Below, piece after piece: positions 6,418-46,365 of a DNA stretch of 64,000 bases (position 1 is its first letter; every line of letters begins with the position of its first letter). The notes under the pieces are model-generated. The model saw only the letters and a list, made by a program, of their open reading frames with translations, was not told where the DNA came from and made no database searches. The stretch lies in assembly GCF_001298525.1 (NCBI RefSeq), contig NZ_CP012678.1:1054001-1118000 (forward strand). Reading direction: 5' to 3'. The DNA is from Psychrobacter urativorans (lineage in GTDB: Bacteria; Pseudomonadota; Gammaproteobacteria; Pseudomonadales; Moraxellaceae). The position numbers and the translations under genes were made by a program.

Positions 6418-7392
6418 ATGAAATTAACCGATATCAGTCGTCAATTGGCGACCGCATTTGCAGCAGTTGGCGTATCAAGTTTAGTATTGGTTGGCTGTAA
6501 TAATTCATCAGCGCCAGAAGCGACCGCAGAGCCTGTAACTGAAGGCGCAGCGGCTGATAAGACAGCAACCAAGGATAGCGATCCTGAACATAGCAAAATC
6601 GTCATCGGTACGACTGAAGGTGACTTTGCAGATATGGTACGCAACCAAGTTAAAAGCTCACTTGAAGCGCAAGGCTATGAAGTTGAACTGGTAACCTTTA
6701 CCGACTATGTACGCCCGAACATTGCCTTGGCTGATGGCGATTTAGACATTAATATCTTTCAGCATAAGCCATATCTAGATACCTTTAAAAAAGAAAACAA
6801 ACTTGATTTGGTAGAGGCTTTCCAAGTACCAACCGCACCACTAGGCGTCTATTCAGGTAAAAAAACCAAGCTTGAAGAAGCGTTTAAAGGTATGAGTGTA
6901 TCTGCACCCAATGACCCAAGTAACTTTGCGCGCGCCTTGGTGATGATGAATGATCTTGGTTGGATTAAGCTAAAAGCTAATATTGACCCGCTAACCGCAT
7001 CAAAATCTGACATTGCTGATAACAGCAAATACGATATCAAAATCGTTGAGTTAGAAGCCGCCCAGCTACCACGCGCACGCGATGAAGTGGACTTTGCTAT
7101 CATTAATGGTAACTATGCCACCGACTCTGGCATCAAGCTGACTGAAGCTTTATTCCAAGAGCCAAGCTTTGCTTATGTCAACTGGTCAGCGATCAAAACT
7201 GCCGATAAAGATAAAAAATGGGTCAAAGACGTGACCAACGCCTACAACTCTGACGCCTTTAAAAAGTATGCTCATGATAGCTTCCCTGGTTATAAATATC
7301 CAAAAATCTGGGGTACTGACACTGTTGCTGCCCCTGCGACCACTACTACTACAACAGATAGCGCTCCAGTCGCAGAAGCTGCTGCTCAGTAA
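6418..7392 (+). CDS. metQ: Methionine-binding lipoprotein, NlpA/MetQ family
   Basis: This is the substrate-binding lipoprotein of the methionine importer. A signal peptide ends in the lipobox LVGC with Cys27 as the lipidated residue. An NlpA-type solute-binding domain fills about residues 58-300, including the family-typical stretches IFQHKPYLD and AIINGNYA. A charged linker (about 30-57) and a C-terminal Thr/Ala/Pro tail (about 303-324) flank the domain and are longer than in E. coli MetQ (271 residues). AAGGAT precedes the ATG. A strong terminator follows at 7455-7486. Confidence 0.92.
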   Translation: MKLTDISRQLATAFAAVGVSSLVLVGCNNSSAPEATAEPVTEGAAADKTATKDSDPEHSKIVIGTTEGDFADMVRNQVKSSLEAQGYEVELVTFTDYVRPNIALADGDLDINIFQHKPYLDTFKKENKLDLVEAFQVPTAPLGVYSGKKTKLEEAFKGMSVSAPNDPSNFARALVMMNDLGWIKLKANIDPLTASKSDIADNSKYDIKIVELEAAQLPRARDEVDFAIINGNYATDSGIKLTEALFQEPSFAYVNWSAIKTADKDKKWVKDVTNAYNSDAFKKYAHDSFPGYKYPKIWGTDTVAAPATTTTTTDSAPVAEAAAQ

Positions 7393-7454
7393 TTGCTGAC
7401 TTAAAACACCTTATCTAAATAAAGTATTTTGAGAGTTTACTAAGTAAAATAAAA

Positions 7455-7486
7455 AGCCCATTATTATCAAATAATGGGCTTTTTTT
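7455..7486. terminator. Bidirectional terminator between metQ and codA
   Basis: A perfect 11-bp stem (7455-7465 and 7470-7480) with loop ATCA is flanked by an A-run on the left and seven T residues on the right. It can end both metQ and the converging deaminase gene. Confidence 0.92.
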
Positions 7487-7542
7487 CGTCGATATTTTAT
7501 ATTGTTGCTATTTACTTCTTACCTTTCTTTCGTTAAATCCGG

Positions 7543-8799
7543 CTATTTGGTTTTTCTAAAAATATCCAGTTCGATATCGTAGCTTGGTTCAGGCTTTTTA
7601 AACAGATATTTACCGTTGCGAATAGAGGCAAGTACATCGGCGCGTTGACGGACGGCTTCAAACGGACTATCGGCATCCAATACCAAGAAGTTAGCGGGTT
7701 TACCCACATCTAAGCCGTACTGGTCTTCGATGTTTAATGTTTTAGCGCCATTAAAGGTAATCAAATCCAGGCAGCTATCAAGCTGCGGCATCGACATCGT
7801 TTGTGCTAAATGAATACCATTATCCAAGATATTCATCAGGTTACCGTTACCAGCCGGATACCAAGGGTCATTGATAGAATCCTGACCAAAACAAACGTTG
7901 ATATTATTTTCCCAAAACTCTTTTACCCGCGTTAAACCACGACGCTTAGGATAAGTATCTTGACGACCTTGTAGATAGGCATTTTCAGTTGGCAAGGCAA
8001 TAAAATTCATGCCGGACTTTTCAAACAATCCCATCATACGAAAAGCATAGGCGTTATCCGCCGAACCAAACGAGCAAGTATGACTGGCAGCTGTGCGACT
8101 GCCAATCCCCTCAATCATCACTAAGGCGTTTAGTAGCTCGACAAAACGGCTCATGACATCATCAGTTTCATCACAATGGACGTCGATAAGCTTGTCGTAT
8201 TTCATGGCCAGCTCAACCGTTTTATGAATGGATTTTTCACCGATTTCACGTGCCCATTCAAAATGAGGGATACTGCCCACACAGTCAGCACCCATTTTTA
8301 AGGCTTCTTCTACCATTTCAGCCCCGCCTTTGTAGGCATACATGCCTTCTTGCGGGAACGCCACAATCTGAATGGTGACGTTGTTTTTTAATTCTTCACG
8401 AAGCTCGAGCATGGCCTTTAAGCCAGTAAGGTTGGGATCACAGACGTCAATATGAGTACGAATAAATTGCACCCCTTTTGACACTTCTTCTTGAATACCC
8501 TTTAATGCCCGTTCCTTGGCATCTTCAAAGGATTGTGTTTTTTTGACATCGTGCCAACGGGCAATCCCTTCAAATAAAGTGCCAGTGTCGTTGGTTGCGC
8601 CTGCATTACCAGCTGTATAAACATAGTCTAGGTGCAAATGAGCATCTACATAAGGTGGCACGACCAACCGACCCTTAAGATCAATCTCCTCTTCAGCAGC
8701 AGGTAAATCCTTACCAATCTGCTGAATAACACCGTCTTTGACCAAAATCTCGTTAGCAGCGCTATTACGATAAATATTTGCATTGGTAAACTTAATCAT
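7543..8799 (-). CDS. codA: Cytosine deaminase (CodA-type amidohydrolase)
   Basis: This enzyme should hydrolyse cytosine to uracil and ammonia for pyrimidine salvage. It is a metal-dependent amidohydrolase of 418 residues. The metal ligands are visible in HLHLD (His54, His56), in the VHCDE stretch near residue 209 and in the conserved GQDSINDPWYP stretch near 305, which aligns with the catalytic Asp region of E. coli CodA. The usual CodA landmark TAGNAG follows the first metal motif. AGGAG lies upstream of the ATG. The gene follows an MFS transporter gene by 70 bp in the same operon. A related isoguanine- or creatinine-type substrate cannot be fully excluded. Confidence 0.85.
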   Translation of the reverse strand: MIKFTNANIYRNSAANEILVKDGVIQQIGKDLPAAEEEIDLKGRLVVPPYVDAHLHLDYVYTAGNAGATNDTGTLFEGIARWHDVKKTQSFEDAKERALKGIQEEVSKGVQFIRTHIDVCDPNLTGLKAMLELREELKNNVTIQIVAFPQEGMYAYKGGAEMVEEALKMGADCVGSIPHFEWAREIGEKSIHKTVELAMKYDKLIDVHCDETDDVMSRFVELLNALVMIEGIGSRTAASHTCSFGSADNAYAFRMMGLFEKSGMNFIALPTENAYLQGRQDTYPKRRGLTRVKEFWENNINVCFGQDSINDPWYPAGNGNLMNILDNGIHLAQTMSMPQLDSCLDLITFNGAKTLNIEDQYGLDVGKPANFLVLDADSPFEAVRQRADVLASIRNGKYLFKKPEPSYDIELDIFRKTK

Positions 8800-8869
8800 T
8801 ACAAACTCCTGTTTTTATTAAAAATCATTTATTTGAAACGTTTTATTGAAAGTGGTTTATTGAACGCTA

Positions 8870-10102
8870 TTAGACAGTAGGTGCATCCAACGTTTTCTTA
8901 GAGACAACTGTAATTATAATGGCAGGAATGAAACAGAGAATAGAGAGATACACAATACCTAAGACGCCTGTTTCTGGCATATGAACCAAAATCAAACCTG
9001 CAAGCCATGTCGCAATCATAATTGAGAAATTAAACACACTTGATTGTACAGAGGTCGCGACTGCTTTTGCTTCGGTCACCTGATGACTAACAGCTGTTTG
9101 AAACATGGTTACCAAAGGTCCAAACGCTAAGCCCCACAGTAAAAAGGCCAAATGCGCAAAACCATTCGTTCCCCTGAAGAAGACAAACAGCAGCATAGCA
9201 ATCACGCCGCAAGCCAACATACCAACGATTAAACCACGCAGATGAGTATCGATAATCTTGGCCGATAAGATAACTGAAATGACCGAACCTATCCCAAAGA
9301 TAAACAAAGCTAGACTGATACCGCCCACAAACTTGATGGTTTCGACCAATAGCGTGATATAGGTATAGGTGCTGTAATGCGCCACAACTGCTAAGAAAGT
9401 TAGGGCTAAGACTATCCAGACCCCAGGGATTTTTAACACCGCGATTGGTGAGTTACTTTGAGTAAGTTTTTCGCCTTGTACGGAAGGCAAGTATTTAGCC
9501 GCCAGCAGCGCAATCACTGCACCCAATGCACCAAGCACCATAAACGAGGTACGCCAGCCCACTTGGGTACCAATATAGGTCATAATCGGTAGACCAAGGC
9601 TCACCCCAAAAGTATTACCCGCCATGATGATGGTAATCGCCTTGCCATGCAGGTTTTCTGGTACCAATGCAGTGCCATAAGCGGCAATCATCGGCCACAT
9701 AATCCCTGCACATATACCGCCAATAATACGCATGGTGACGATGAGCGGATAAGACGAGGTAAGACCGACGACCAGATTAGAGACGGCAAAACCTGTCAAT
9801 AGCACCAATAAAAGCACCTTGCGATTGACCCACAACGTCATGCTAATGAGGGGAATGGCAAAAATCGCCGATGCCAGTGCGTATATGCCGACTAAAAATC
9901 CTACTTGAGTCTGCTCAATTCCTAAACCCTCAGTCATTTGCGGCAAGATGCCAGAAGGCATCAGCTCTGAGAGAATACCAATAAAGGTGACACTTGCCAT
10001 CAAACCAAAGATAAACCACGAAATAGGGTTTTGATGTTGACCATTTGCCGTGTTTTCTGAACGGCTGCCTTCTGCAGGACTTGGCTTTGAAAGACTAGAC
10101 AC
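8870..10102 (-). CDS. MFS transporter (DHA1-like), linked to cytosine deaminase
   Basis: This 410-residue inner-membrane transporter has about 12 helices and a hydrophilic N-terminal tail of about 28 residues. It resembles the AraJ/PbuE/NepI drug and nucleoside exporter group (conserved PMIAAYGTALVP and GNTFGVSLGLP stretches). It starts at a GTG, chosen because AGGAG lies 6 nt before it. Its position directly ahead of codA suggests it moves a pyrimidine or related base, in place of the usual CodB permease of another family. The direction of transport is not known. Confidence 0.82.
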   Translation of the reverse strand: MSSLSKPSPAEGSRSENTANGQHQNPISWFIFGLMASVTFIGILSELMPSGILPQMTEGLGIEQTQVGFLVGIYALASAIFAIPLISMTLWVNRKVLLLVLLTGFAVSNLVVGLTSSYPLIVTMRIIGGICAGIMWPMIAAYGTALVPENLHGKAITIIMAGNTFGVSLGLPIMTYIGTQVGWRTSFMVLGALGAVIALLAAKYLPSVQGEKLTQSNSPIAVLKIPGVWIVLALTFLAVVAHYSTYTYITLLVETIKFVGGISLALFIFGIGSVISVILSAKIIDTHLRGLIVGMLACGVIAMLLFVFFRGTNGFAHLAFLLWGLAFGPLVTMFQTAVSHQVTEAKAVATSVQSSVFNFSIMIATWLAGLILVHMPETGVLGIVYLSILCFIPAIIITVVSKKTLDAPTV

Positions 10103-39632: not shown

Positions 39633-40055
39633 TTACGCGTTCGGTAAGCGAAACAGATAAACAATCACCCCGCTACCCACTACGGCAACAATCCATGCTA
39701 GCCATAGCATATCCGCTGGCAGACGATAAAATAACATGAGCGTCGATATCGTCAGCATAATACTGGCTAGCCACTTGGCATATAGCGGCACAGCATGACG
39801 ATCTTCCCAATCACGAACGAACTTCCCAAAATATTTATGATTAATCAGCCAAAAGTGAAACCGTCGTGAGCTACGCGCCCAACATCCTGCCGCTAATAAT
39901 ATAAAAGGTGCGGTCGGCATCACGGGCAGCAAGATACCAATGATTCCTAATGCAAAGAATAGCCAGCCTAATACGAGAAACAGCCAACGTACGGTAGGAT
40001 TTTTGGATTGATTGATCTTAGGTCGATGATAAAAAGTTTTTTTTGATGGAGTCAT
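39633..40055 (-). CDS. DUF454 (YbaN-like) inner-membrane protein
   Basis: This small inner-membrane protein of about 140 residues has three or four helices. The family motif is LGIIGILLPVMPTAPFILLAA followed by CWARSSRRFHFWL. Function is unknown; in E. coli ybaN lies near recombination and adenine salvage genes without a known role. The frame is open up to 40139 (168 residues), but the family core starts late, so the ATG at 40055 is preferred. Neither start has a clear ribosome site. Confidence 0.82.
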   Translation of the reverse strand: MTPSKKTFYHRPKINQSKNPTVRWLFLVLGWLFFALGIIGILLPVMPTAPFILLAAGCWARSSRRFHFWLINHKYFGKFVRDWEDRHAVPLYAKWLASIMLTISTLMLFYRLPADMLWLAWIVAVVGSGVIVYLFRLPNA

Positions 40056-40340
40056 GACTAGGTTATCAACAAATAATAGGTTTAGGCAGTACAGACTACC
40101 TATATAAGTTATTAAAGATAAAGAAGTTAACAACACCATTCAAGACTGATTTTGCAGGGTTTTGCTACCGCTGGGTATGTTTGGTTAGTGATTGAGTAAA
40201 CTGAGTAAATAGATACATTCAGGTTTTATAGGGTTATTCTCTTTAGAGTGGTAATTATTATCAACTCTGAAACGAATAAAATGTGTCATCTGCTGTATTT
40301 TTGGTTAACTACAATCTTAGCTTTAAGTGAAGTGAAATAA

Positions 40341-40410: not shown

Positions 40411-40911
40411 TTAAACCAATATCAATGCCAGTATCGCAAATACCAAGAAATAGCCAAAGACGCTCATAATCGCGTACATGGTTTTGATCTCTTTACCATT
40501 AATCTGAATGCTGGCTAAGGTGTTGCCAAGTTTCAAAATGGAGATGGTATAGAAGTAAAAGGCTAATAACAGCAGTACCATGCTAATGGTAAATATAGCG
40601 ATGGAAGACAGCGCGCCAAAAAAGACAACCGTTCCAGGAAATAACGCCTCACCTTTGATAATTAAAACCAAGAGTACGATAGCCACACCTGACGCAGACG
40701 CATGGAAAAATATAATATCGTGCCACGTTGCATCGGCTTTATAAAAACTAGACTCAATATCGAGCTTATCGTTACTTAGCGTGTTTGGCGCTCTTGACAT
40801 AGAAGCGCTAGCACGGCTTAACCTATGACTTTTTATATTACTCATGGTCACAAGAAAGGTAAAAAATGATAGGGCGATCCAAAAGATGACAAACATATTT
40901 ATTTTTATCAT
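40411..40911 (-). CDS. Uncharacterised inner-membrane protein
   Basis: I do not recognise a family. There are 166 residues with about four transmembrane helices: one at the N-terminus (about 5-23), then a hydrophilic Ser/Arg/Asn-rich segment (about 25-62), then three helices. The frame is open to 40980, but TTAGGA sits about 10 nt before the ATG at 40911, so that start is preferred. It has its own terminator and 5' gap, so it is probably a single-gene unit. Confidence 0.68.
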   Translation of the reverse strand: MIKINMFVIFWIALSFFTFLVTMSNIKSHRLSRASASMSRAPNTLSNDKLDIESSFYKADATWHDIIFFHASASGVAIVLLVLIIKGEALFPGTVVFFGALSSIAIFTISMVLLLLAFYFYTISILKLGNTLASIQINGKEIKTMYAIMSVFGYFLVFAILALILV

Positions 40912-41190
40912 AGTCTTTATTCCTAAACCTAGAGAATCTTGATTTAAAAATATCTTGTGTACTACAAGATTCGATATCATATTTTCTGTTTATTTTTCTA
41001 TTTATATAGTGTTTAAACCTATAACAATGAATGCTTAGATGTTTATCTTAGCAGTCCTATGACTTTTGTTTGTAAAAAAGTGCGCTAATAAGCGGCTTTA
41101 TTGTAGCGATGTTCATATCTATGATTGCTGTCCGTTTTGATAATGGCACTTAGTTTGTTTAGCCGTGTGGTAAATGTAGGTCGTTATTCA

Positions 41191-41595
41191 CTATGATTTG
41201 GCAGGATAGCTTTCCCAGTAATCTGCGATTGCCTTTGGAAAGCAGTATTCTTTTGGCATCACGGTAATGGCGATTGGCACTAATATAGATTTGCTCACAC
41301 CGCCAATACTCTCACAAGTCGCATTAGTCGGTACGTCATAATAAATCACGCGCAAAGTATTTTGCGGGCAAAGGTCTGAGCACTGGAATGATTTGACCAC
41401 TGCGATACCATGATGATAACCAATCACCCATTGCTGCGCGCCTTCGGTTGGTGCTGATTCTTTTTGCTCAGCAGCTCGAATGAGATCGGCATCTGTCATG
41501 GTGTCTTCATTGGTCGGTGGTGAGACGAGAACGCAAGCGCTCAGGCTTAACAACAATGCACTTAAAGTCAGGGCTTTGGCGGTTGATGTTTTCAT
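41191..41595 (-). CDS. Small lipoprotein of unknown function
   Basis: This 134-residue lipoprotein has a signal peptide ending LSLSAC, with Cys21 lipidated. The mature part has four Cys (SFQCSDLCPQN near 71-78, then C93 and C117 regions), likely two disulfides. It contains a short conserved-looking GYHHGIAVVKSFQCSDLCP stretch. No family was recognised. It lies 37 bp downstream of the pentapeptide-like gene on the same strand, so the two could share a message. Confidence 0.72.
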   Translation of the reverse strand: MKTSTAKALTLSALLLSLSACVLVSPPTNEDTMTDADLIRAAEQKESAPTEGAQQWVIGYHHGIAVVKSFQCSDLCPQNTLRVIYYDVPTNATCESIGGVSKSILVPIAITVMPKEYCFPKAIADYWESYPAKS

Positions 41596-41632
41596 GGTGA
41601 ACGTCCTTGTTTGGAGTAGTTAATACCTACAT

Positions 41633-43240
41633 CTAACGTTGAGTATGTCTCTTAACGGCTACAACTATTTGCCAGATTAATATTGCAAACCAAATATAAA
41701 AAAGTAAGCTTATAAACTCAAACCCACTCTTAGATTCCAGAAATCTACTAAAAGGCAAAAAATTTCTCGCAGCACTATTAGCGTAAACTGAAAGAGTATT
41801 AAAATAAGGATGAAGAAAGTAATTATAATTATCGAAATAACAGTCATGAAAAGATAGTAACATCGTATATAAAATCAGGCTAATGATTAGCCAGACAATT
41901 GGTCTTACATAGTTTCCGCCAAATTCTGACATTAAATCATTCATATAATATACTACTACATCTCGCTTACTGCCGTATGCCTTCAGCTCGCTCTTAAAAG
42001 CTTTCATCTCTTGAACAAAAAACCTATTTGCTTCAAGAGTATTCCCTCTAGAATCGAATGAATACTTTATGATTCTAAATGTTTCTCGATTAGTATTGTA
42101 AGGATTAATATTTGACTTTAAGAAATTGGGTTGTTCTCTTAAGTCCACATTCTCGAAATCTAAACCATAGTAAAAATTTACTTTCTTGAAGTTTGAGGCG
42201 GTCATAAATGTCACAAATCTAAATATCGCTGTCACAGGATAAGATGCTATAACAATTTTATCCGCTTCGCCAAATTCAGCATTTTCAAAATCCGCAACAT
42301 CATAAAACTTTACTCTTTCAAATTTTGCATAACTAAAATGACTTTCAAAAGCATTAAAGACACCTTGCATTTCTGTATTAATACATAGAAAACTTTCAAC
42401 CTTCATGTTTGTTATTTCGAAGCTAGAAAGGAAATTTGTGTCATTAATCTGAAGAGATCTTACAGCAATTTTATTAAGTTTAACAACCCCTTCAAATGTA
42501 CAATTAAAGATTTCCAGTGTTGTGTTAACAAATGACTGCTCATTTAATTCTAGAAAAGGTTCTTTCTTAAAAACTGAGTTTTCTAATCTGAGTAAATTTT
42601 TGAAACTACAACCTGAGAATAAACTATCCTCGAAGATATTATTTGTTTCTATGCGCGATACTCTCACTTTAGTCTTAAACTCACATTCAGAAAATAAGCA
42701 ATTCGTATCATTACTCAACATTGTAATGGGAGTTATATCAAACCAGTTATAAAATACGCATTCTTCAAAGAAAAAACTTACATCTTCAACTTGCCAATCA
42801 CCTATATATAAATGGCAATCAATTAAGTGAATTCCGCTGAATAATTTTAATAATTTAAAATAATCGAAACTGTCTCTACTCTTTCTATCAGGAAAATGAA
42901 TATTAGATAAAATGATTAAATCATAGGTATTTGTTCTACGAATCAAGTTTCTAGTTTCTTCATCATTTAAATCACTGTCTCGAATCATCTGAGGAAAGTC
43001 TATACCCAAGTCTCTCTTGTATGAGCTAGGTGAAGAACTAAATAAGCTATGAATAGTACTAGAGGTTGAAGCTGATGTTGTAGCAAGAAAGTCTGCTATA
43101 TAAATCTTTAATAAGTCATAAAACTCAGATAAAACACCTTTCAACTTATCATCTTGATAATTGCTTTTTACACAATGAAGAGCACATTCTTCATGAGGTG
43201 CAAACTTATTGTTTGTACAACCTTGGAAAGTACATGTCAT
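41633..43240 (-). CDS. Pentapeptide-like membrane protein with N-terminal Cys/His cluster
   Basis: This 535-residue protein of unknown function is strongly AT-rich compared with its neighbours. Residues 3-23 hold a probable zinc knuckle (Cys3, Cys8, Cys19, His22, Cys23). A helical, Ser-rich linker follows (to about 115). Repeats centred on F or L every five residues (for example CEFKTKV, CSFKNLL, CTFEGVV, AKFERVKF, ADFENAEF; about 130-370) suggest a right-handed beta-helix. A charged segment with ANRFFVQEMKAF (404-415) leads to two transmembrane helices (about 446-464 and 509-529). Other bacterial pentapeptide proteins share this architecture, and their role is not established. No K+-channel filter is seen between the helices. 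It may be horizontally acquired. Confidence 0.8.
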   Translation of the reverse strand: MTCTFQGCTNNKFAPHEECALHCVKSNYQDDKLKGVLSEFYDLLKIYIADFLATTSASTSSTIHSLFSSSPSSYKRDLGIDFPQMIRDSDLNDEETRNLIRRTNTYDLIILSNIHFPDRKSRDSFDYFKLLKLFSGIHLIDCHLYIGDWQVEDVSFFFEECVFYNWFDITPITMLSNDTNCLFSECEFKTKVRVSRIETNNIFEDSLFSGCSFKNLLRLENSVFKKEPFLELNEQSFVNTTLEIFNCTFEGVVKLNKIAVRSLQINDTNFLSSFEITNMKVESFLCINTEMQGVFNAFESHFSYAKFERVKFYDVADFENAEFGEADKIVIASYPVTAIFRFVTFMTASNFKKVNFYYGLDFENVDLREQPNFLKSNINPYNTNRETFRIIKYSFDSRGNTLEANRFFVQEMKAFKSELKAYGSKRDVVVYYMNDLMSEFGGNYVRPIVWLIISLILYTMLLSFHDCYFDNYNYFLHPYFNTLSVYANSAARNFLPFSRFLESKSGFEFISLLFYIWFAILIWQIVVAVKRHTQR

Positions 43241-43350: not shown

Positions 43351-43385
43351 AAAAAAGCGCTATCACAATTGTGACAGCGCTCTTT
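43351..43385 (-). terminator. valS terminator
   Basis: AGCGCT-a-TCACAATTGTGA-c-AGCGCT (43356-43381) folds into a 12-bp stem with one mismatch. Six A residues at 43351-43356 give the T-run on the minus strand. It separates valS from the AT-rich gene downstream. Confidence 0.88.
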
Positions 43386-43410: not shown

Positions 43411-46365
43411 TTACAACGCCTTTAACTCTTCCATCTGCGCTGTCATCGCCGTCAACTGCCCTTCTAGCTCAGCCAATTTTGCTTTCTCGCTTTCGACTAC
43501 TTCCACAGGCGCTTTACTGACAAAGCCTTCATTACCCAGCTTACGGGCGATACCTTCGGCTTGACCTTTCAACTTATCATATGACTTACCCAAACGAGCC
43601 AGCTCAGCCGTTGGGTCAATCAGCCCTTTCATCGGTACAAGGACGCGCAGCTGACCGACCATACTTGATGATGATAATGGCACGTCATCGCCTTCTTTTA
43701 GGATGGTTAAGCTCTCTACTTTAGCTAGCGCCTTAAACTGATTGGCGATACGCGATAGACGCGTGTCTTCCGCTGCTGAGATATTTTGTAGCAATACTGG
43801 CAGACGTACGGCGTTGCCCAATTTCATCTCACCACGGATATTACGTACGCTGGCGATCAGCTCTTGTAGCCATGCCATATCGGCTTCGGTTTGCTCACTG
43901 ATTTGCGCAGTATCGGTCTGTGGATAGGCGGCAATCACGATGCTATCGGTGTCTTTACGACCCAATAGCGGTGCGATGGTCTGCCAAATCTGCTCAGTCA
44001 GATATGGCATGATCGGATGGCTAAAGCGTAGCGCGGTCTCAAGCACATGCAGCAGCACGTAGCGGATTTGCGCTTTACGCTCGCTTGATACCGAGTCATC
44101 ATTCAGGCTCGCCTTGGCAAGCTCAACATACCAATCACAGTATTCATTCCAGATAAATTCATAAATATCATGACTGACCATATCAAGGCGATACTGGGCA
44201 AAATGCTGATGGATATTGGCAATCGTTGAGTTCAAACGACTCATAATCCATTTTTCTGGTAATTCCCACACCTCAGCATTGGCAGTTTGGTCAATAGCTT
44301 GGGCATTGCCTTCTTTATCAACACAGTTCATGAGCACAAAGCGACTGGCGTTCCAGATTTTATTACAGAAGTTACGGTAGCCTTCGACACGTTTTAGATC
44401 AAAGTTGATATCGCGACCGGTACTTGCTAAGGATGTAAAGGTAAAGCGCAGCGCATCCGTACCAAATGCCGGAATACCTTCTGGAAATTCTTTACGCGTT
44501 TGCTTTTCAATTTTTGCCGCGTCTTTCGGGTTCATCATGTTACTGGTGCGTTTTTCTACCAACGCTTCTAACTCGATACCGTCGATGATATCGATAGGAT
44601 CAAGAACATTGCCCTTTGACTTAGACATTTTTTGACCATTGCCATCACGCACCAGACCGTGTACATAAACGGTCTTAAATGGTACTTGCGGCGTGCCATC
44701 TTCATTTTTGACAAAGTGCATGGTCATCATAATCATGCGCGCGACCCAAAAGAAAATAATGTCAAAGCCAGTAACCAATACACTGGTTGGATGGAACGTT
44801 TCCATCACACGTGGATCGGCATTCACATCCGCCCAATCAAGGGTACTAAATGTCCATAGACCAGAGCTAAACCACGTATCAAGGACGTCATCATCTTGGC
44901 GCAGTTTCACGTCAGCAGCGAGATTATATTTGCTGCGCACTTCCGCTTCATCACGGGCGACATAGATGTTACCTTCCTCGTCATACCAAGCAGGAATACG
45001 ATGTCCCCACCACAGCTGACGGCTGATGCACCAGTCTTGAATGCCATTCATCCATGCCATATACATATTTTTATATTGCGCTGGGACGAATTCAATTTGA
45101 CCGTCTTCTACGGCGGCAATCGCAGGCTGAGCAAGCTCTTTAACCGCTACATACCACTGATCGGTTAACCACGGCTCAACGATTGCACCGCCACGCTCAG
45201 CACGAGGCGCTTTTAGCGCATAATCTTCGACTTCTTCTAACCAACCTTGCTCGCCAGCTTGCTCAACGAGGAATTTACGCGCCGCGAAACGCTCAAGTCC
45301 TGCGTACTCACTTGGCGTGGTCTCAAGATTTGGCTCACGGGTTTGCAAGTCAGGATAAACTTCCATCGCAGGCAAAATATGCGCATGAGCATCTAAGATA
45401 TTAATCAGCGGTAATTCATGACGACGACCAAGCTCATAGTCATTAAAGTCATGCGCTGGGGTGATTTTTACACAGCCCGTACCAAAATCGATATCAACAT
45501 AGTCATCAGCAAGGATAGGTACGATACGACCGGTAATCGGTAAGGTAATGGTTTTACCGACCAAATGCGCATAACGCTCGTCTTTTGGATTGACCGCAAC
45601 GGCAGTATCACCAAGCAAGGTTTCAGGACGCGTGGTTGCGACGACTAAATAGTTTTTGCCATCTTTAGTAGTGATATCATTATCAGTGAAATGATAGCGG
45701 AAATGCCACAAGCTTCCTTTTTCATCATGGTTTTCTACTTCTAAATCTGATAATGCAGTTTGGAACTTAGGATCCCAATTCACCAAACGCTTACCGCGAT
45801 AAATTAAACCATCATCAAACAGGCGCACAAACACTTCTTTCACCGCATTAGACAAGCCATCATCCATGGTAAAGCGCTCACGCGACCAATCGACCGAGCT
45901 GCCCAAACGACGAATCTGACGGGTAATATTACCGCCCGACTCTTCTTTCCATTCCCAGACTTTATCAATAAAATCTTCGCGGCTCATATCACGGCGCTTG
46001 ATACCTTCAGCTTCCAGACGACGCTCAACCACCATTTGCGTGGCAATACCCGCATGATCGGTACCCGGTTGCCACAGCGTATTGTCACCATCCATACGGT
46101 GATAACGGGTTAGAGCATCCATAATAGCATTATTAAAGCCATGCCCCATATGTAGCGAACCAGTGACGTTCGGTGGTGGCAAGGCAATAGAAAACGATTC
46201 TTCTTTATCAAAAGTTGGCTGAAAATAACCACTTTCCTCCCAACCTTGATACATACCTGCTTCGACTTCCGCAGGGTTGTAGGCGTTTTCAAGTTGGCTA
46301 AGTGCCGCTTGGATAGAAGTGGTTAGATTGGTTTTGCTGCTTTCATTGTTATTGGGATTGCTCAT
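43411..46365 (-). CDS. valS: Valyl-tRNA synthetase
   Basis: This class I synthetase charges tRNA-Val. It has 984 residues. The HIGH motif appears as HMGH (72-75, in [14 protein letters not shown]) and KMSKS near residue 580 ([10 protein letters not shown]). The CP1 editing domain lies about 200-400, with the [17 protein letters not shown] region. A C-terminal coiled-coil tRNA-binding arm (about 910-984) ends the protein. Slightly longer than E. coli ValS (951). No strong Shine-Dalgarno is seen before the ATG. Confidence 0.97.

Follow-up and report, generated by a model that had tools for sequence, protein, structure and literature searches.

In a 64,000-nucleotide stretch of the Psychrobacter urativorans genome (NZ_CP012678.1, positions 1,054,001 to 1,118,000; hereafter the window), a gene for a 535-residue protein lies 170 bp after valS, on the same strand. 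With a probability of roughly 0.5, we read it as a single-gene anti-phage cassette that joins a cytosolic beta-helix sensor to a membrane effector with two transmembrane (TM) helices and occupies a slot next to valS. A preliminary description, made from the letters of this stretch, had suspected a defence role for the gene. That suspicion holds up on grounds outside its view, as the gene sits next to valS, in a slot whose cassettes are exchangeable and of defence type. Because presumed anti-virus genes are swapped at this slot, the 535-codon gene is probably an undescribed anti-phage gene; we infer its role from location, and its position in the slot is the decisive evidence for the defence reading.

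The slot was surveyed in 60 Psychrobacter genomes, up to 20 kb past valS being fetched in 40 of them, which together with the window gives 41 loci. After valS comes a variable stretch, followed by DUF454, a cold-shock gene and YeiH. Open reading frames (ORFs) of the slot fall into 86 clusters, those adjacent to valS vary by genome, and one slot (L152) is nearly empty. In the genus loci L118-L157 the right border is a TerD-vWA gene (TerF-like, cluster c0). Its near-constant start (TAAGGAACACCATGAACC) was found in 31/41 loci, some matches being weak, and TerF-like ORFs are present in 23/41, some as fragments, and absent from the window. Since the TerF-like gene closes the slot for other cargo and is absent from the window, it is a border gene and not a dedicated partner. 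Window ValS is 97% identical to ValS of Psychrobacter sp. GP33 (L031), and the hairpin downstream of valS has a folding energy of -22.2 kcal/mol (z -5.7; 0/200 shuffles as stable). The slot resembles known fixed sites in its short, strain-variable cargo with many anti-phage genes among it, and differs from them in being chromosomal, in its valS and TerF-like borders and in its valS 3' scars. We found no account of it in openly licensed literature on valS or Psychrobacter hotspots, genomic islands and defence.

Other genomes fill the slot with low-GC cassettes unrelated to the 535-codon gene. A cassette gene above the Pfam curated cut-off for a domain that we class as defence-type is held by 19 of the 41 loci (Table 1); three of these (L127, L133, L137) were assigned via their ORF cluster and the others scanned individually. 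L134 has matches to STAND and HSDR_N_2 below threshold only. PADLOC matched slot genes to HEC-06 (E 6.7e-88, L147), PD-T4-6/mads_6 (E 2.4e-36, L140), Old/GajA (E 7.5e-29, L145) and Ppl (E 1.4e-20, L130), with no match for the slot genes of L124 and L131. A control Pfam scan of the 49 other window genes returned housekeeping families among the matches listed (25 of 70 families). The preliminary description had also remarked on low guanine-cytosine (GC) content, and at 0.308 the 535-codon ORF is indeed the lowest among window ORFs of 100 codons or more (n = 51; mean 0.446, standard deviation 0.029). Slot ORFs could be scored in 38 loci, and in each of these at least one has a GC content lower than that of valS by 5 points or more, so the low value is typical of slot cargo. 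Two other cargoes are themselves candidate undescribed systems: a three-gene low-GC cassette (clusters c11-c13), recurring in L132 (1369-2634), L125 and L138, whose first gene has no Pfam match, and a 697-codon slot gene in L141 (16628-18721, minus strand; GC 0.271), likewise without a Pfam match.

A profile search found the 535-residue family in 14/105 Psychrobacter genomes, a patchy presence instead of the uniform carriage that would have counted against the earlier reading; the suspicion of transfer voiced there also stands. All 14 copies lie downstream of valS or a valS 3' end. One or the other falls within the short flank in 12/14 loci. For G016 and G061, in which the gene is spread over two contigs, the flank of the N-terminal piece was scored; the G124 flank takes in no more of valS than its last 46 codons. 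Longer stretches show intact valS upstream in G105 and in G119, whose short flank held just a valS-tail remnant. The TerF-like gene, its start or a remnant adjoins the family gene in 12/14 (truncated remnants follow it, for example, in L164, L166 and L002), and in 8/14 the family stop codon is the TAA of the TAAGGA ribosome-binding site of the TerF-like gene, a translational-coupling arrangement. Among 84,980 species genomes we found 68 family loci; all six Psychrobacter ones are in the valS-downstream region, and the others belong to Nitrotoga, Microbulbifer, Pseudomonas, Arcobacter, Sulfurimonas and further genera.

Psychrobacter copies do not lie inside prophage. A viral-contig collection yielded two distant homologues in prophage-like contigs, L158 and L159. 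L158 carries tail sheath, tail tube-like (labelled head closure by PHROG), tape-measure and tail genes of P2 type, then a short ORF, which we take to be Ogr-like, and then the homologue; in L159 the homologue stands amid integrase, antirepressor, HNH nuclease and exonuclease genes. The L158 homologue (7000-9548) thus closes a P2-like tail operon, on the side remote from the published gpA-gpQ hotspot (PMC9122126), and possibly marks a second accessory site.

Traces of cassette movement are found at valS itself. In 11/60 genomes valS is accompanied, no more than about 2 kb away, by a second, partial copy of its 3' end. Such scars stand downstream of intact valS in L119, L124, L126, L129, L130, L131, L133, L135 and L139, and also in L016, L176 and L177; in the last two the order is valS, an ORF of 487-488 codons, the valS-end scar, the family gene and the TerF-like gene. 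When nine scars were compared with the 41 valS ends, the best match was another genome's valS in eight. The partial copies look like marks of repeated cassette gain, in which incoming DNA would recombine in valS at one border, attach with less specificity at the other and push the former valS end aside. This pattern would fit homology-facilitated illegitimate recombination, a process that Acinetobacter baylyi and other naturally transformable bacteria are reported to undergo (PMC3240628). Integrase-driven insertion was considered and set aside, as no integrase turned up in the listed 25 of 59 Pfam families pooled from the slots and one-sided homologous recombination appears to account better for the scars.

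An AlphaFold2 model of the 535-residue protein (mean local confidence, pLDDT, 86; predicted template modelling score, pTM, 0.78) bears out the layout proposed in the preliminary description, a Cys/His cluster at the N-terminus being followed by a right-handed beta-helix, helical linkers and a membrane hairpin of two helices. The Cys/His cluster is a possible metal site, but the zinc-knuckle label once given to it, taken strictly, is not supported. No signal peptide is present, and the protein is most likely anchored in the inner membrane, its two termini facing the cytoplasm, an orientation supported at the C-terminus by its basic end. In an alignment of 46 sequences picked out of 94 matches, mean pairwise identity is 0.64 over residues 371-420 and 0.68 over residues 506-535, and the juxtamembrane helices with their adjoining stretch carry the motif FRIIK-SFD-GN-EANRFF-EM.

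Pfam gives a match to Pentapeptide_3 (PF13576) of 21 bits, below the cut-off of 27, and several relatives have a precomputed PF13576 match. The NCBIfam scan found no family at E<=1, a sequence search among solved structures no relative, and Foldseek against PDB and BFVD no hit at E<=0.001. Tailspikes and lyases score as high as the predicted beta-helix, so the match speaks for a fold and not for membership of the pentapeptide family. Pentapeptide-repeat proteins (PF13576/PF00805; HetL, QnrB1, AlbG, MfpA) are among the closest known systems; compared with them, the 535-residue protein stays under the Pfam cut-off, has no solved structure close to it in sequence and adds the Cys/His N-terminus, the juxtamembrane helices and the two-TM hairpin. 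Membrane effectors with two TM helices are known from anti-phage systems, such as HalA of Hailong and the TM effectors of CBASS and retrons, and are among the closest known systems for the membrane part. Pentapeptide repeats occur as domains of conflict systems (PMC7159879; PMC10853773). In phage-resistant Campylobacter jejuni CAMSA2038, a pentapeptide-repeat gene stands beside an Eco57I-type system, where the phage-sensitive strain has an AAA ATPase gene instead; the available parts of that report do not credit it with the resistance (PMC8713573). We found no account of the family in openly licensed literature on pentapeptide repeats in phage defence, defence islands and conflict systems.

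The alleles are mosaic. Over all pairs of 21 proteins, pairs that are not independent of one another, identity across residues 1-300 is nearly uncorrelated with identity across residues 421-505 (r 0.16). The two values are 0.20 and 0.98 for P0005/P0057 and 0.41 and 0.98 for P0042/P0044, with the reverse pattern in P0107/P0126 (0.92 and 0.30) and P0034/P0042 (0.83 and 0.31). These 21 were drawn from 27 proteins on contigs over 20 kb, P0067, P0079, P0084 and P0096 being omitted as distant or partial; no fixed rule governed the omission of P0074 and P0120. Because the identities are nearly uncorrelated, the N-terminal half and the first TM helix with its loop (TM1-loop) exchange separately around the conserved juxtamembrane motif and the second TM helix, as expected for parts under diversifying conflict.

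In the mechanism that we propose, the gene is exchangeable cargo of the slot between valS and, in most carriers, the TerF-like gene. The Cys/His-capped beta-helix would sense infection by binding a phage-made or phage-altered protein; by way of the conserved juxtamembrane helices the signal would reach the two-TM hairpin, whose oligomerisation would make the membrane leaky, and the infected cell would stop growth or die ahead of phage release. Trigger and oligomerisation are hypothetical, and pore formation by the hairpin is likewise hypothesised. More tentatively, the family might be a polymorphic immune receptor, in which a pentapeptide-type beta-helix detects a phage product and opens a two-TM channel, with sensor and TM1-loop alleles shuffled independently by recombination in the valS-terF exchange slot for immune genes across Psychrobacter. 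If true, a membrane-tethered pentapeptide beta-helix would add a sensor type to bacterial immunity, the independent shuffling of sensor and TM1-loop would be a sign of two-sided conflict, and a compact chromosomal slot would be defined in a genus with little published phage-defence work. The slot borders offer a simple handle to harvest more cassettes, several cargo genes being without an informative domain.

Several results weigh against the anti-phage reading. PADLOC 2.0.0 found no family at E<=1 for the 535-residue protein, 72,556 plasmid and 50,697 phage records hold no homologue, and the promoter scan between valS and the gene gave no promoter-like site. The topology is not clear-cut, because the connecting loop of the hairpin carries a small net positive charge (+1.1). 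Distant homologues have mixed neighbours, with KAP NTPase (3), Fic (3), type I restriction (2), AcrB (2) and HlyD (2) named among the matches listed (25 of 132 families) for 83 of 182 neighbouring ORFs (loci L009-L042). AAA_21 is not specific to defence, because it also matched 2/49 ordinary window genes. The slot moreover accepts other cargo, including a Na+/H+ antiporter in L130, and the scans gave no informative domain for the slot genes of L120, L122, L132, L141 and L151.

These last cargoes also favour the foremost alternative, that the gene encodes an ordinary accessory protein of the envelope or of a stress response (to cold, osmotic or membrane stress, for example) and simply uses a permissive site after valS. 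The ORFs of similar size upstream of the homologues in L176 and L177 point the same way, as does the TerF-like border gene, which belongs to a stress-associated family. Set against defence-type genes in at least 19/41 loci, and against patchy presence, mosaicism and prophage carriage that would be unusual for a stress protein, we regard this explanation as unlikely. Superinfection exclusion, in which the hairpin and its variable outer loop would keep phage DNA out or obstruct phage membrane proteins without cell death, is still less probable; homologues in prophage-like contigs, the predicted inner-membrane location and the TM1-loop as one of two exchanging modules would suit it, but it leaves the large cytosolic beta-helix and the Cys/His cluster unexplained, and the companions in the slot are mostly cytosolic systems. 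It is hard to credit that the protein is a DNA mimic, akin to the pentapeptide proteins Qnr, MfpA and AlbG, that shields topoisomerase or inhibits DNA-binding enzymes at the membrane. Qnr/MfpA-type topoisomerase protectors are short soluble proteins not known to have a membrane hairpin or Cys/His cluster, whereas the 535-residue protein has hydrophobic helices at residues 445-471 and 508-533; the Pfam score falls below the cut-off, and the fold alone is weak evidence, tailspikes and lyases doing equally well.

The preliminary description, confirmed in part as to its observations and partly supported in its interpretation, had offered the 134-residue lipoprotein as a possible partner, which is not supported. 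A two-gene system is highly improbable: the lipoprotein gene starts 37 bp beyond the 535-codon ORF on the same strand and also occurs near homologues in L164, L167 and L031, but in eight of the nine loci that carry it (of 41) it stands beside unrelated cargo, and 11/14 family loci have no lipoprotein match within the stretch examined. The lipoprotein is therefore probably not a partner of the 535-residue protein. It is found in 11/60 genus genomes and, in the nine loci, always within the variable region.

Table 1 Features of the window (positions within the 64,000 nucleotides) and defence-type cargo of the slot in other Psychrobacter loci
Feature	Position or locus	Strand	Basis
valS, left slot border	43411..46365	-	3' end found in 59/60 genomes
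Terminator-like hairpin with trailing U run, in the interval from valS to the cargo	43352..43385	-	folding energy
535-residue slot cargo, beta-helix plus two-TM membrane protein	41633..43240	-	ORF, 46-sequence alignment, structure prediction, lowest GC
Cys/His cluster C3, C8, C19, H22, C23, residues 1-25 (putative metal site)	43166..43240	-	conserved in 43-45/46
Right-handed beta-helix, proposed sensor, residues 108-367	42140..42919	-	structure prediction; C161, C186 invariant in 46/46
Juxtamembrane helices, residues 385-438	41927..42088	-	alignment, structure prediction
First membrane helix, residues 445-471, varies between alleles	41828..41908	-	structure prediction, allele comparison
Helix between the two membrane helices, residues 478-492	41765..41809	-	structure prediction
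Second membrane helix, residues 508-533, strongly conserved, then basic end	41642..41719	-	alignment, structure prediction
134-residue predicted lipoprotein, an accessory gene in its own right within the variable region	41191..41595	-	locus comparison
189-residue predicted membrane ORF (cluster c1), variably present	40411..40980	-	locus comparison
DUF454 gene, first conserved gene past the variable region	39633..40139	-	Pfam, locus comparison
GmrSD nucleases	L119, L147, L154, L155		Pfam
NB-ARC/STAND with TPR	L124		Pfam
SIR2-STAND	L149		Pfam
TIR + SLOG	L142		Pfam
AAA_21 + RloB	L135		Pfam
AAA_15/TOPRIM, OLD-like	L145, L137 (by cluster)		Pfam
Protein kinase	L140, L127 (by cluster)		Pfam
RelA_SpoT	L129, L133 (by cluster)		Pfam
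NERD	L118		Pfam
AAA_5	L123		Pfam
HATPase	L131		Pfam
AAA_21/SMC-like ATPases	L130, L143		Pfam
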